Of a stretch of DNA of 25,007 nucleotides, positions 1 through 19,737 are shown piece after piece; position 1 is the stretch's first letter; each line of letters begins with the position of its first letter. The position numbers were made by a program, and so were the translations under genes. This DNA comes from a virus: positions 1 through 25,007 of the IMG/VR virus record IMGVR_UViG_3300042475_001932, one strand, 5' to 3'. The notes beneath the pieces were generated by a model that was not told the DNA's origin, ran no database searches, and was given only the letters and a program-made list of their open reading frames with translations.

Positions 1-671
1 GCGTGTCTCGCACGCAGGAAGTCGTAGACAAGGCCGGACGCGATAGCGAACTGGCTCGCCAAAAGGTGCTCAAGACCATCGAGGTCAAGCGCGACCTTGA
101 AATGCGTCTTGTCGGCAACTTCGCTTCCGTTGTGGAATCCGGCGCTACGACCCGCAAGAGCGCGGGCCTTCTGGCGTTCCTGACCACGAACACCTCGAAG
201 GCCGGTTCGGACGGCGGTTTCTCCGCTGGTATCGTCTCGGCGGCTACCAATGGAACCCAGCGCACCTTTACGGAAGCTCTGGTGAAGTCGGTGCTTGCCA
301 CGGCGTTCTCCAACGGCGCTACGCCTACGCAGGCTTACATGGGTCCGACCCACAAGCAACAGTTCTCGGCCTTCACCGGTATTGCGGACATTCGTTCGGA
401 AGTGTCGGGCAAGGGTATGGCGACCATCTACGGCGCCGCTGACATGTACGTGTCGGACTTCGGGGCCATTACCCTGATCCCGCACCCCTACGGTCTGACC
501 CGTGACTGCGTGTTTGTTGACCCGAACTACGCCAAGGTCGCCACGCTTGACGGCCTGAAGTCGAAGGAACTTGCTTCCGCCGGCGACAACATGAAGTTCC
601 TGATCACGCTTGAAAAGGGCTTGGTCGTGGCGAACGAGAAGGCTCACGCGGTCATTCGCGACCTTACCTGA
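1..671 (+). CDS. Major capsid protein, SU10/DUF5309 type (5' truncated by window edge)
   Basis: This is the C-terminal part (about 222 residues visible) of the major head protein, which forms the icosahedral shell. The frame is already open at base 1; the GTG at position 3 is not a credible start because DUF5309 proteins are usually about 300 residues and begin with an N-terminal arm that is missing here. Recognisable family features are the helix around 'ELARQKVLKTIEVKRDLE', the 'TTRKSAGLLAF' segment, the 'GTQRTFTEALVKSVL' helix, 'MGPTHKQQFSAFTG', and the 'YVSDFGAITLIPHP' strand followed by 'CVFVDPNYAKVATLDGLKSKELA'. The family uses an HK97-like fold. Portal and terminase genes would be expected further left. 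Function is assigned from family resemblance; confidence is high. Confidence 0.9.
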   Translation, partial: VSRTQEVVDKAGRDSELARQKVLKTIEVKRDLEMRLVGNFASVVESGATTRKSAGLLAFLTTNTSKAGSDGGFSAGIVSAATNGTQRTFTEALVKSVLATAFSNGATPTQAYMGPTHKQQFSAFTGIADIRSEVSGKGMATIYGAADMYVSDFGAITLIPHPYGLTRDCVFVDPNYAKVATLDGLKSKELASAGDNMKFLITLEKGLVVANEKAHAVIRDLT

Positions 672-8226: not shown

Positions 8227-8561
8227 TGTGGGCGCAATGCCGCGACTGGCTTGTGCCGATCATGGTGGATACGACCGAGGCTGAGGTATTGGCCGACCTA
8301 GAAGCCAATCGCGCGCAGCTATGGATGGGCGATGGCGCGGCGATGGTGCTGCAACTGCTAACCCCGCCGCCGACTTTGCATATCTGGTTGGCCGGTGGTG
8401 AACTAGGCGGGCTTCTCGACATGCGCGGCGGAATGGAAGCTTGGGCTAGATCGCAAGGTTGTGAAGCCGTGACGATTAATGGCCGACGCGGCTGGGACCG
8501 GGTGTTAAAACCCTACGGATATGAGCCTGACGGCGAAGAACTACGGAAGGCGTTGAAGTGA
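8226..8561 (+). CDS. GNAT-like small virion-associated protein (T7 gp13-like type)
   Basis: A 111-residue protein with GTG start overlapping the previous TAG by one base. It has the shortened acetyltransferase-like layout seen in small proteins of podovirus structural operons. An N-terminal helix with 'EVLADLEANRAQLWMGDGAAMVLQLL' leads into the strand 'LHIWLAGGELGGLLDMRGGMEAWARSQGCEAVTINGRRGWDRVLKPYGYEP'. The ending 'GRRGWDRVLKPYGY' resembles the C-terminal motif of GNAT folds ('GRxxWxRxLxxxGF'). T7 gp13 and relatives are needed for internal-protein assembly. The acetyl-CoA loop is not convincing, so enzymatic activity is doubtful. Confidence 0.65.
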   Translation: MWAQCRDWLVPIMVDTTEAEVLADLEANRAQLWMGDGAAMVLQLLTPPPTLHIWLAGGELGGLLDMRGGMEAWARSQGCEAVTINGRRGWDRVLKPYGYEPDGEELRKALK

Positions 8562-17246: not shown

Positions 17247-17428
17247 TCGATAACACCCTTCCGATGGTCGCAGCGGTCCTGCACCGTGCCTATCGGGAGA
17301 ACCGCCGCGCCTACGTCGAGGAAGCGTCACGGTTGATCCCTACAATGTCACCGTGGCCCAAGCGGCGAAGTTCCAAACGTAGACCCATTCCCGGCGTCAT
17401 TGACGCACCTACGGACAGCGAGGGCTAG
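17243..17428 (+). CDS. Small basic protein, unknown function
   Basis: A frame of 61 residues if it starts at TTG 17243, which overlaps the endolysin stop (TTGA); ATG 17264 gives 54. The N-terminal half is helical ('MVAAVLHRAYRENRRAYVEEASRLI') and the C-terminal half is very basic and Pro-rich ('PWPKRRSSKRRPIPG'). It fits exactly between the endolysin and the phosphoesterase, whose GTG start overlaps its TAG. The basic tail might bind nucleic acid; no family is recognised. Confidence 0.55.
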   Translation: MIDNTLPMVAAVLHRAYRENRRAYVEEASRLIPTMSPWPKRRSSKRRPIPGVIDAPTDSEG

Positions 17429-18534
17429 TGCCTACACCTGCACGAACGGACGAGGGGCCGCGTTCGCGCCGCTCCGTCAAAGAGCGCATCGAGGCCAAAC
17501 TACGCCAAGGCCATAGGCCAAGAGGCATGACGGGCAATGGCAACGGGGCCGTTGCGGAAGCGGCGTTAGAGGCGGTTGCAGAGGGCGAGTTTGCCACGAC
17601 CGCCGCGTTCAAGTCGGCCATGCTGGACTTGCCGCCGGAATGGGAACCGGATTGGTCCCTATACAGGGCGCAACGCTACCAGCAGCCCGTTCCACTGTCG
17701 GTGCTGACACCGGCCCTAGAACCCTTCCCGATGGCCCCTAGCGGCACGCCACAGCGTATCCTAGTCATCGGCGACCTACACAATGACCCGCGCCACGAAC
17801 ATCGCCTGAAGGTGCTAACGTGGGCGGCGCGCATGGCAAGCGAACACCGCTACGACCGCATCATCCAGGTTGGCGATTGGTCAACCTTTGACAGCGTGAA
17901 CCAGCACGACGACAACGCCACGGTGGCCGCAAGGTCCAAGCCATCGGTGAAGGTCGATCTGGAAAACCTCACCCAATCGCATCAGGCCTTCCGACGCGGG
18001 ATGGCGGAAGACTATCGCCCCAAGCTCGACTTTCTGCTAGGCAATCACGAGAACAGGCTAGAGCGGTTTGAAAATGCCAACCCGGAAAGCGTCGGAACCT
18101 TCACCCTCGCAAGGGATGAAACCTTTGCACAATTCGGCTGGCGGTCACGACCTTATGGCGAACTGTTCTATGTGGAAGGTGTCGCTTTCACCCACCATCC
18201 CACTAATGGCGCTGGCCGCGCTTATGGCGGCAAAACCGGCCCGCAACGGGCAGCAAACGAAAGCACCGTCCCTGTAGTCAGCGGTCACACTCACAGACGC
18301 CAAGTGCATGATAGCCCGAAGATCGGCCCGGTTGACGTCATTAGCATGGTCGAGGTCGGATGCGGCCTTCTCTGGGGCGAAGTCGAATCCTACGCACGTC
18401 ACGGCCTGACGGGCTGGTGGCACGGCCTAGTGCCGATGACAGTGCAAGGCGGGGTCATCACCGATCTTGAGTTCAAGTCAATGCTGACAATCCGTGACCG
18501 TTACAGCGATGACGGCGCTGACGTGAGGTCATAG
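17428..18534 (+). CDS. Calcineurin-like metallophosphoesterase
   Basis: A 368-residue protein with GTG start overlapping the previous stop by one base. Residues 1-60 are basic and helical, possibly a small HTH ('RSRRSVKERIEAKLRQGH'). From residue 110 the metal-binding motifs appear in order: G115-D-L-H118, G149-D-W151, G205-N-H-E-N-R210, H256-H257 and G286-H-T-H289. All expected ligands are present, so it should be active on a phosphate ester, possibly a nucleic acid or nucleotide; substrate unknown. It follows the lysis genes, an unusual neighbourhood for a DNA-processing enzyme. Its TAG stop lies inside the first 12-bp direct repeat flanking the hairpin element. Confidence 0.88.
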   Translation: MPTPARTDEGPRSRRSVKERIEAKLRQGHRPRGMTGNGNGAVAEAALEAVAEGEFATTAAFKSAMLDLPPEWEPDWSLYRAQRYQQPVPLSVLTPALEPFPMAPSGTPQRILVIGDLHNDPRHEHRLKVLTWAARMASEHRYDRIIQVGDWSTFDSVNQHDDNATVAARSKPSVKVDLENLTQSHQAFRRGMAEDYRPKLDFLLGNHENRLERFENANPESVGTFTLARDETFAQFGWRSRPYGELFYVEGVAFTHHPTNGAGRAYGGKTGPQRAANESTVPVVSGHTHRRQVHDSPKIGPVDVISMVEVGCGLLWGEVESYARHGLTGWWHGLVPMTVQGGVITDLEFKSMLTIRDRYSDDGADVRS

Positions 18535-18543
18535 GGCTTGGCG
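18532..18543. repeat. Left 12-bp direct repeat flanking the hairpin element
   Basis: TAGGGCTTGGCG occurs here and at 18750-18761, in the same orientation. Each copy is separated by exactly 4 nt from the ends of the 198-nt inverted repeat. This copy contains the phosphoesterase stop codon. Confidence 0.85.
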
Positions 18544-18547
18544 GGAA

Positions 18548-18745
18548 GCTGCGGCGTGTATGCGCCCTTACGGGTAGCATAAACCCAACGGCGAACCAGT
18601 GGGCGTTGGCGCGAACCCGCAGCCCAAACACCCTAGCGCATATCACTGGATTGGTGTAGGGTTTTCTTGCTGCGGCGGTGGTGACACGGCCCATTGGTCC
18701 GCCGCTGGGTCGATGCTACCCGCAAGGCCGCATCCCCGCCGCAGC
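18548..18745 (-). repeat. 198-nt long inverted repeat / giant hairpin element
   Basis: Positions 18548-18604 pair with 18689-18745 in one unbroken register: 48 of 57 positions are Watson-Crick complements with no bulge. After a roughly 12-nt internal loop on each side, a second stem follows (18617-18623 with 18669-18675, and 18630-18635 with 18657-18662), leaving an apical loop of about 21 nt. Of the nine mismatches in the outer stem, four become G-U pairs if the leftward strand is transcribed, but only one if the rightward strand is. No T run follows on either strand, so it is not a standard intrinsic terminator. It fills the gap between two convergent genes and may be a MITE-like insertion or a structured RNA. 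Strand is given as minus because of the G-U bias. Confidence 0.85.
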
Positions 18746-18748
18746 GGC

Positions 18749-19018
18749 TTAGGGCTTGGCGTCATCCAAAAACAACAGCCCTTCCGCTATTGCCTCGATT
18801 TCCGGTTTCGCAGACTGAATAGCGTCCTGCATCTCGTTGAGCGCAATCCGGCGCGTAAAAGGGTCTGACATGCGCTCCGCGTCGTTTGACATCAACAGGA
18901 TCGCCACAAGCATTTCAGCCTTGCGGGTCGTCGTCGGCGGGTCAGCTAGGGCCATCCAATCCATTCGCGATAGTACCGCGCGTTTTTCGTTGCGAGCAAC
19001 AAAAAAACTTTGTAACAT
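18749..19018 (-). CDS. Small helical protein, unknown function
   Basis: An 89-residue frame if it starts at ATG 19018; ATG 18964 would give 71 residues, and neither has a good Shine-Dalgarno. Residues 30-89 read as a genuine helical protein ('TTTRKAEMLVAILLMSNDAERMSD', 'NEMQDAIQSAKPEIEAIAEGLLFLDD'). The first 18 residues cover an AT-rich palindrome and may not be translated. It is convergent with the phosphoesterase, with the hairpin element between them. If that element is an insertion, the gene originally ended ten codons further on. No family recognised. Confidence 0.55.
   Translation of the reverse strand: MLQSFFVARNEKRAVLSRMDWMALADPPTTTRKAEMLVAILLMSNDAERMSDPFTRRIALNEMQDAIQSAKPEIEAIAEGLLFLDDAKP
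18750..18761. repeat. Right 12-bp direct repeat flanking the hairpin element
   Basis: This is the exact second copy of TAGGGCTTGGCG. On the leftward strand it encodes the last codons of the 89-residue gene (A-K-P) and part of its stop. The pair of copies looks like a target-site duplication. Confidence 0.85.
18983..19006. repeat. AT-flanked palindrome
   Basis: A GTTGC-GA-GCAAC core is flanked by five T on the left and seven A on the right. It stands out in this GC-rich DNA. It overlaps the -35 element of the candidate rightward promoter and lies within the 5' part of the leftward gene, so it could be an operator. Confidence 0.5.
18990..19018 (+). promoter_or_regulatory. Candidate sigma-70 promoter for the spanin genes
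   Basis: TTGCGA at 18990-18995 and TAACAT at 19013-19018 are separated by 17 nt; each matches consensus at four of six positions. It would read toward Rz/Rz1 with a leader of roughly 185 nt. It is plausible because the hairpin element and the leftward gene separate the spanins from the main late operon. Confidence 0.35.
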
Positions 19019-19026
19019 AAACTGTT

Positions 19027-19162
19027 CATCGGGGCTGCAAGCCCGATGGCCGGGATCGGTTGCCAACCGATTTTAGGCGGGTACCAACCGTCCAAGGGAC
19101 GTTTCTGTGGCATCCCAAGGCCCTTTCTTTTTTCAAGCACCGCGCCGCCCTTATGGCGGCGC
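19027..19162 (+). promoter_or_regulatory. Structured leader ahead of the spanin genes (three hairpins)
   Basis: Three stems lie between the candidate promoter and Rz. CATCGGG/CCCGATG spans 19027-19048. ATCGGTT-GCC-AACCGAT spans 19055-19071 and is followed by TTT, so it could be a weak terminator. A perfect 8-bp GCGCCGCC/GGCGGCGC stem with a 5-nt loop spans 19142-19162. The last lies 46 nt before the Rz ATG. Together they suggest control of spanin expression by RNA structure; no known riboswitch class is recognised. Confidence 0.45.
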
Positions 19163-19208: not shown

Positions 19209-19568
19209 ATGCTTCCCATTCCCCTAACCCCCCGCCTTATCCTAACCGGAATAGCCGCTACAACCCTTCTAGCGACCGTGGGCGGGTTATACTGGAAGGG
19301 TAGACACGATGCCGCCGAACGGGCCAAGGCCGCTGTAGAGGCATCCCAAGCCGCCCAGCGTCAAGCCGAAGTCACCACGACCGCGCTGGATGAACATTCC
19401 ACCCGCACCGTGATTATCAGAGAGCGCCAAGATGCAGCCGTCCAGATCATCCAAGCCGCGCCGGGTTCTGATAGCCCGGTCCCTCCTCTTGTGCTCGATG
19501 CTTGGCGTCGTGGGTTGCTCAACGATTCAGGCACCGCCGACCCCGATAGTCCCGCAAGCGTTCCGTGA
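19209..19568 (+). CDS. Rz: Rz-like inner-membrane spanin (i-spanin)
   Basis: A 119-residue protein. ATG 19209 has GGAG six bases upstream; the frame is open back to 19077, with GTG 19107 a second possible start. One N-terminal membrane anchor is visible (about 9-27, 'RLILTGIAATTLLATVGGLYW'), then a periplasmic helical region rich in Ala/Glu/Gln ('AERAKAAVEASQAAQRQAEVTTTALDEH'), as in Rz proteins. The decisive evidence is the lipoprotein gene nested in the +1 frame at its 3' end. Rz and Rz1 together fuse inner and outer membranes in the last step of lysis, so the host is Gram-negative. Confidence 0.85.
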   Translation: MLPIPLTPRLILTGIAATTLLATVGGLYWKGRHDAAERAKAAVEASQAAQRQAEVTTTALDEHSTRTVIIRERQDAAVQIIQAAPGSDSPVPPLVLDAWRRGLLNDSGTADPDSPASVP

Positions 19569-19737
19569 GCCTTGCCGTCGACCCGACCCGTCATCCGTGG
19601 CGACCGTGGGCGACCTAGCCAGCTTCTCAGTCCGTCAAGATGCGGCGCTGTCCGTGTGCGATTCTGCCCGGTCAGCCCTTGTCCAGATTATAGATGGAAC
19701 GCAGGCCCCGAAGCGGAAACGGTTTGGGTTGTTCTAG
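19432..19737 (+). CDS. Rz1: Rz1-like outer-membrane lipoprotein spanin (o-spanin)
   Basis: A 101-residue protein starting inside Rz and overlapping it by 137 nt in the +1 frame, the classic embedded or overlapping spanin layout. The signal peptide has a basic n-region (R10-R11, R16) and a hydrophobic core ('SLLLCSMLGVVG'). A lipobox V-V-G-C places the lipidated Cys at 29. The mature part begins with a Pro-rich stretch ('STIQAPPTPIVPQAFREP'), typical of Rz1. Its TAG shares the palindrome CTAG with the stop of the leftward gene that follows. Confidence 0.87.
   Translation: MQPSRSSKPRRVLIARSLLLCSMLGVVGCSTIQAPPTPIVPQAFREPCRRPDPSSVATVGDLASFSVRQDAALSVCDSARSALVQIIDGTQAPKRKRFGLF

Follow-up and report, generated by a model that had tools for sequence, protein, structure and literature searches.

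BIMEs, which are inverted REP pairs, are among the closest described counterparts of the locus studied here, as both comprise two inverted palindromic units with a short spacer, are intergenic and could form a long RNA hairpin. Long imperfect hairpins, proposed to act in retro-regulation, also occur at the transcript borders of phages and are typified by lambda sib and the T7-type RNase III hairpins, to which the hairpin described below may be regarded as analogous, being likewise long, imperfect and located at a phage transcript border. As reviewed in PMC2229807, the RNA-folding bacterial MITEs (ERIC, RUP, NEMIS and RU) resemble the present element in being short and non-coding and in possessing inverted repeats, terminal direct repeats and an RNA fold. 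A further comparison is offered by STAXI and the L17 downstream element, two candidate structured RNAs from comparative genomics, the latter of which is located in a 3' UTR; for these, as here, UNCG and GNRA loops and G-U pairs serve as criteria for distinguishing RNA from DNA and for identifying the strand (PMC2864571).

The long hairpin and its direct repeats

The window, i.e. the whole stretch of 25,007 bases analysed here, is an entire IMG/VR record and derives from a tailed phage, of which it covers a part; the capsid protein is SU10-like. The hairpin lies between two convergent genes. On the plus strand, a rightward late gene (17428..18534) encodes a calcineurin-like metallophosphoesterase of 368 amino acids (Pfam PF00149, E 5e-7; PHROG 221, E 3e-30), while on the minus strand a leftward ORF of 105 amino acids (18749..19066) starts with TTG, with an ATG possible at 19015, belongs to no family and has no homologues in IMG/VR or phages.

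The original prediction described an imperfect inverted repeat bracketed by a perfect direct repeat, and the whole of this geometry is confirmed. The two arms (18548-18604 and 18689-18745) are 57 nt each with 84 nt between them, 48 of the 57 positions (84%) are complementary in an ungapped comparison, and gaps of exactly 4 nt on each side (GGAA and GGCT) separate the arms from two perfect copies of the 12-bp repeat TAGGGCTTGGCG. The first copy (18532..18543, plus strand) contains TAG, the stop codon of the phosphoesterase gene, and the second (18750..18761, plus strand) shares bases with the stop codon of the leftward ORF. The 4-nt ends of the element do not form an inverted repeat with each other (GGAA versus AGCC). 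The proviso that the 12-mer might be a frequent word of this genome does not apply, as TAGGGCTTGGCG occurs exactly twice in the 25 kb, at 18532 and 18750. The remaining sequence-level statements of the original prediction are correct as well, including that joining the flanks at one repeat gives the leftward ORF ten further codons (YDLTSAPSSL) followed by a stop.

The long hairpin is real and far above chance. Its arms are the sole inverted repeat of at least 22 nt within 400 nt across the whole window, and the best ungapped 57-nt inverted pair has 48/57 matches at the hairpin versus 30-32/57 in shuffled or other 3-kb segments. The 230-nt stretch has a folding energy of -137.7 kcal/mol (z -7.2) on the plus strand and -134.5 kcal/mol (z -8.3) on the minus strand.

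The whole hairpin has no counterpart in Rfam or in the phage and plasmid collections, and no Rfam family matches the element even at permissive thresholds. Whole-element copies are absent elsewhere in its own record, BLASTN of the whole element gave no match in phages, plasmids or the 12 related records, and exact core patterns, which diverged copies can escape, found no whole element in IMG/VR and GTDB genomes. Neither a tRNA nor a tmRNA was detected at the element by ARAGORN. A 28-bp match to a Novosphingobium plasmid looks like chance, the matched site being unannotated and without a hairpin of this kind, while the IMG/VR pattern matches L028-L041 were rejected as lacking a related fold.

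Other sequence features are present in the vicinity. The 8-mer TAGGGCTT has one further occurrence, at 19735, where an Rz1-like spanin gene has its stop codon. TAGGG followed by a T-rich stretch recurs at 18532, 18658, 18750 and 19735 on the plus strand and at 18635 on the minus strand, and this motif sits in each of the direct repeats, immediately 5' of each structured unit described below, and, as TAGGGCTT, on the Rz1 stop. Three consecutive small palindromes (CATCGGG..CCCGATG, ATCGGTTGCCAACCGAT and CGTCCAAGGGACG) are located at 19020-19105, upstream of the leftward ORF, the last of which is the sole terminator-like site in 17.2-20.6 kb.

The three-way-junction unit in three phages

Each half of the hairpin fits one shared three-way-junction unit of approximately 76 nt. 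The halves start with GCTGCGG, end with CCGCAGC and contain two small hairpins, and RNAalifold on the two of them yields a three-way junction composed of a closing stem (P1) and hairpins P2 and P3. W_left (18548..18623, 76 nt, predicted RNA sense minus) and W_right (18669..18745, 77 nt, predicted RNA sense plus) share the P1 stem GCUGCGG/CCGCAGC, while the P2 and P3 loops are UUCG (18595-18592) and GUAA (18571-18568) in W_left, and UCCG (18698-18701) and GCAA (18722-18725) in W_right. The two units are in opposite orientation, back to back, with their 5' ends 45 nt apart, and the spacer between them (18624..18668, 45 nt) forms a weak hairpin of its own and contains no promoter recognisable in a regional scan. 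Folded alone, the window units have only modest stability (z -1.1 to -2.8). Fold conservation within the unit is not significant when the two window arms are compared, as 0.137 of the simulations were as good with the nine differences present, and since this is no better than chance placement of the differences, outside evidence is needed for the unit fold.

Such evidence comes from a covariance model of the two window halves (R1), which represents the complement of the predicted sense strand, with little effect on scores, and which among 113 records in total matches only the window, L006/L013 and G071. The L006 match (8267-8338, identical to L013 4018-4089) scores 28.7 bits (E 0.0057 in 257 kb; 0.0006-0.001 per record), compared with 13.4 bits for a sequence-only model on the same unit, which is the most stable of all units when folded alone (-47.8 kcal/mol, z -5.5). 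G071 (59,155 b) is one of 80 added records picked solely for encoding a related capsid protein; its match at 55639-55711 scores 36.8 bits (E 2.7e-5), and BLASTN of the right arm against this locus gives 83% identity over 41 nt (E 3e-7). R1 found nothing in 50 of these 80 records, and G071 alone stood out in the other thirty; 20 further records (more than 3 Mb, four plasmids included) gave nothing below E 0.7, and over all of these added records, with 3.1 Mb of plasmids among them, R1 gave no match below E 0.25 apart from G071. A weak match (20.8 bits, E 0.36), which falls inside a transglycosylase gene of a Microcystis phage, was set aside.

A search with a pattern drawn from every unit known at that point returns only L006/L013, and is no independent evidence, as L006 was used in its design. 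A descriptor scan over 566 kb for a UNCG hairpin, a GNRA hairpin and a closing stem ranks the known units on top, with shuffled sequence giving 3 matches at equally loose thresholds. In L004 (7549-7653), a 20-nt inverted repeat (GGTAGCTGCGG/CCGCAGCTAC) is located at the late-gene end, i.e. the late/early junction; this palindrome has the stem sequence of the window units (GCTGCGG) but not the inner fold (z -0.7), and R1 is negative there.

Two further uncultured phage lineages thus have a single copy of the unit, each at a gene border different from that in the window. There are only three independent loci, of which L006 by itself is marginal. The back-to-back pair in the window lies between convergent genes; the L006 unit lies downstream of an Rz1-like gene and of a terminator-like hairpin, and overlaps the end of a leftward ORF; and the G071 unit lies between a rightward ORF and a leftward gene cluster, the first gene of which encodes a PTH2-type peptidyl-tRNA hydrolase. 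These sites, all at gene borders, are non-equivalent, which suggests that the element moves or has been repeatedly acquired. No direct repeats are seen around the single L006 and G071 units. The G071 PTH2 gene (L133 1100-1408; Pfam E 5.6e-18) starts approximately 90 nt from the unit, and a scan of two other PTH2 phages, which revealed no convincing unit, led to rejection of a unit-PTH2 association. A reading of the L006 unit as an attachment site was also rejected, the tyrosine integrase of this phage being approximately 3 kb away from it.

These positions also bear on whether the hairpin is a bidirectional transcription terminator. Its location between convergent genes would suit such a function, as would that of the L006 unit just downstream of the last late gene, but a terminator is very unlikely, as the hairpin is followed by no T-run on either strand, the terminator scan is negative there and intrinsic terminators are several times shorter. 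Moreover, L006 already has a terminator-like hairpin before its unit, and the G071 unit is not at a convergent border.

The loops of the four units, in the order W_left, W_right, L006 and G071, are UUCG, UCCG, UGCG and UCCG in P2 and GUAA, GCAA, GUGA and GCAA in P3, when read on the predicted sense strand, which is minus for W_left and plus for W_right, L006 and G071. The only positions that vary among them are N in UNCG and both N and R in GNRA. The P2 stem of L006 still pairs despite an almost complete change in sequence. RNAalifold on an unguided MAFFT alignment of the four units recovers P1, P2 and P3, with double changes at 7 of 23 pairs, although the covariation test is small, as there are only three independent loci. 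A hand alignment anchored on the loops, which was chosen to pair and therefore leans towards structure, has 90 of 96 cells paired and compensatory changes at 12 of 24 positions, a result reached by none of 20,000 column shuffles. There are 10 G-U versus 2 A-C cells on the sense strand, some of them shared by descent. UNCG loops are extra stable when closed by a C-G pair; here, the P2 loop has G-C or U-G as its closing pair, and is thus not of the extra-stable form.

The loop types, the compensatory changes and the excess of G-U over A-C cells support the view that the unit has been under selection as RNA. The original prediction, which treated the hairpin as element-like and considered a constraint on the direct repeats, remains apt in the former respect, but did not recognise the arms as structured units in their own right, and the constraint is likely to be an RNA fold.

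The site downstream of the phosphoesterase gene

Relatives of the phosphoesterase are encoded on 12 IMG/VR contigs, none of which carries the hairpin, and none are found in GTDB genomes. The nearest of them, L003 (phosphoesterase 98% identical), diverges from the window directly after the stop codon, and similarity resumes at window position 19209; the intervening gap holds a leftward HNH gene. L006 and L013, which are identical over 5.75 kb, have an HNH gene in the post-phosphoesterase gap as well, and this gap is therefore a replaceable slot. The occupants differ, comprising leftward HNH homing-endonuclease genes at 6158-6730 in L003 and 6061-6897 in L006, the latter of which overlaps the phosphoesterase tail. 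The capsid gene of the window (3-668) is absent from all phosphoesterase-sharing contigs (versus G001-G012), many of which are fragments, and the lysis-end cassette seems to have been exchanged between phages with different head genes. The folding-energy minimum of L003 (181-410) lies inside a tail-type gene (128-790) and represents a long self-complementary coding stretch.

The left end of the hairpin may be suspected to be a remnant of protein-coding DNA, namely the terminal part of an HNH homing-endonuclease gene that has since been lost, as leftward genes of this type occupy the same slot in L003 and L006 and a short junction similarity (TPKLP/TPQLP) is present. This is highly improbable, since the peptide encoded by the arm has no significant relatives, no open frame with relatives, whatever its length, runs through the arms, and both the inverted copy and the G071 relative would be left unexplained, the latter contradicting this reading by having the full structure at a site without an HNH gene.

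The original prediction of a MITE-type mobile element with a target duplication would in its simplest form involve DNA only, i.e. a foldback MITE that was mobilised by a transposase of the host and duplicated 12 bp of its target, the resemblance of its arms to RNA folds being incidental. Perfect 12-bp repeats exactly 4 nt from both arms, the clean tail-to-tail overlap of the flanking genes obtained on excision, and the absence of any copy from the 12 phosphoesterase-relative contigs agree with this; units at non-equivalent places elsewhere likewise speak for mobility. The empty-site junction with a single 12-mer (GTCATAGGGCTTGGCGTCATCC), by contrast, was not found among the same 12 contigs. 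Furthermore, L006 and the window share a 17-nt stretch (GGGAAGCTgCGGCGTGT; 16/17 identical) that lies just within the left arm and spans the proposed left boundary, a score reached by only 1 of 5000 random segment pairs. Such a match would be unexpected for an element starting at 18544, and part of the supposed element may therefore be ancestral. Given this match and the missing empty site, the MITE reading is only partly supported. Its DNA-only form is unlikely, as the outermost 4 nt differ from ordinary inverted-repeat tips, loop variation between the phages is restricted to N and R, the single L006 and G071 units are without direct repeats, and no paired relative occurs in anything searched.

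The L006 sequence at this junction, resembling the left end in the window, implies that one unit could be ancestral there, in which case the second might have arisen by local inverted duplication, the resident unit being copied in inverted form by template switching during replication and the 12-mer being duplicated too. The arms indeed resemble each other (84%) far more closely than they do any other member. Inverted duplication is nevertheless quite unlikely, because the other relatives have no unit at the post-phosphoesterase junction, a simple template switch would not place direct repeats equidistant on both sides, and the arms are 16% diverged, yet the repeats are identical.

Possible role and relation to known systems

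The explanation preferred here, which is judged narrowly probable, is that the long hairpin comprises two back-to-back copies of a structured element of approximately 75 bases, which is mobile or exchanged, was inserted as a dimer and is active at transcript borders. As the unit occurs in single copies elsewhere in two phages and matches no known RNA family, the hairpin probably represents a mobile, RNA-like element of small size that has so far gone unrecognised, as opposed to an ordinary terminator. The unit would move or be exchanged between phages, and would have entered the window site as an inverted pair (palindromic dimer), leaving the 12-bp target duplication. It may then act at transcript borders, namely where the rightward phosphoesterase mRNA and the leftward-ORF mRNA would each have their 3' end. 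In a read-through transcript of either strand, one sense and one antisense copy would pair into a hairpin of approximately 198 nt (about -135 kcal/mol), which would protect the mRNA 3' end from exonucleases or undergo cleavage by RNase III, and would insulate the convergent phosphoesterase gene and leftward ORF from each other. Against this explanation, the two small folds would lose out to the long hairpin if both copies were on one transcript.

A more far-reaching reading, considered doubtful, is that the unit represents a new class of mobile structured RNA of temperate phages, i.e. a three-way junction of approximately 75 nt with UNCG-like and GNRA loops, which spreads between gene borders, can insert as a pair with a 12-bp duplication and has its own function in trans, e.g. 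by serving a junction-binding protein as decoy or scaffold. A trans-acting three-way junction would need the copies in the window to be transcribed separately, for which no promoter is recognisable in the spacer. With its three independent loci, the unit is a candidate new structured RNA of phages. If it is a real RNA family, it would be an unrecognised structured RNA of uncultured phages that moves between gene borders like mobile elements, and the four unit sequences suffice as the seed of a covariance model for metagenomes. RNA-fold mobile elements duplicating into inverted pairs would also provide a route to long hairpin RNAs at convergent gene ends.

In comparison with the STAXI and L17 elements (PMC2864571), the window unit has a different fold, matches no Rfam family and is found only in these phages. 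Terminal inverted repeats like those of MITEs are present as the 57-nt arms, 4 nt inside the direct repeats, while the searches of its own record, of phages and plasmids and, by exact core patterns, of IMG/VR and GTDB genomes revealed neither multiple whole copies nor an insertion sequence sharing these ends. The window element differs from the RNA-folding MITEs reviewed in PMC2229807 in having neither a whole-copy family nor a parental insertion sequence, in its non-inverted outermost bases, and in that its arms are themselves units occurring singly elsewhere. An inverted pair of palindromic units, as in BIMEs, is present at 18548-18623 and 18669-18745, and a RAYT-type Y1 transposase (PF01797), also expected of BIMEs, is absent from the five records tested, in which the controls were positive. 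Unlike the REP, which is a hairpin of 20-40 nt, the window unit is a three-way junction of 72-77 nt, and its pair is flanked by a 12-bp direct repeat, with no large copy number seen. As for the lambda sib and T7-type hairpins, to which no sequence relation is expected, the window hairpin may be set apart from them in being built of two copies of one unit.
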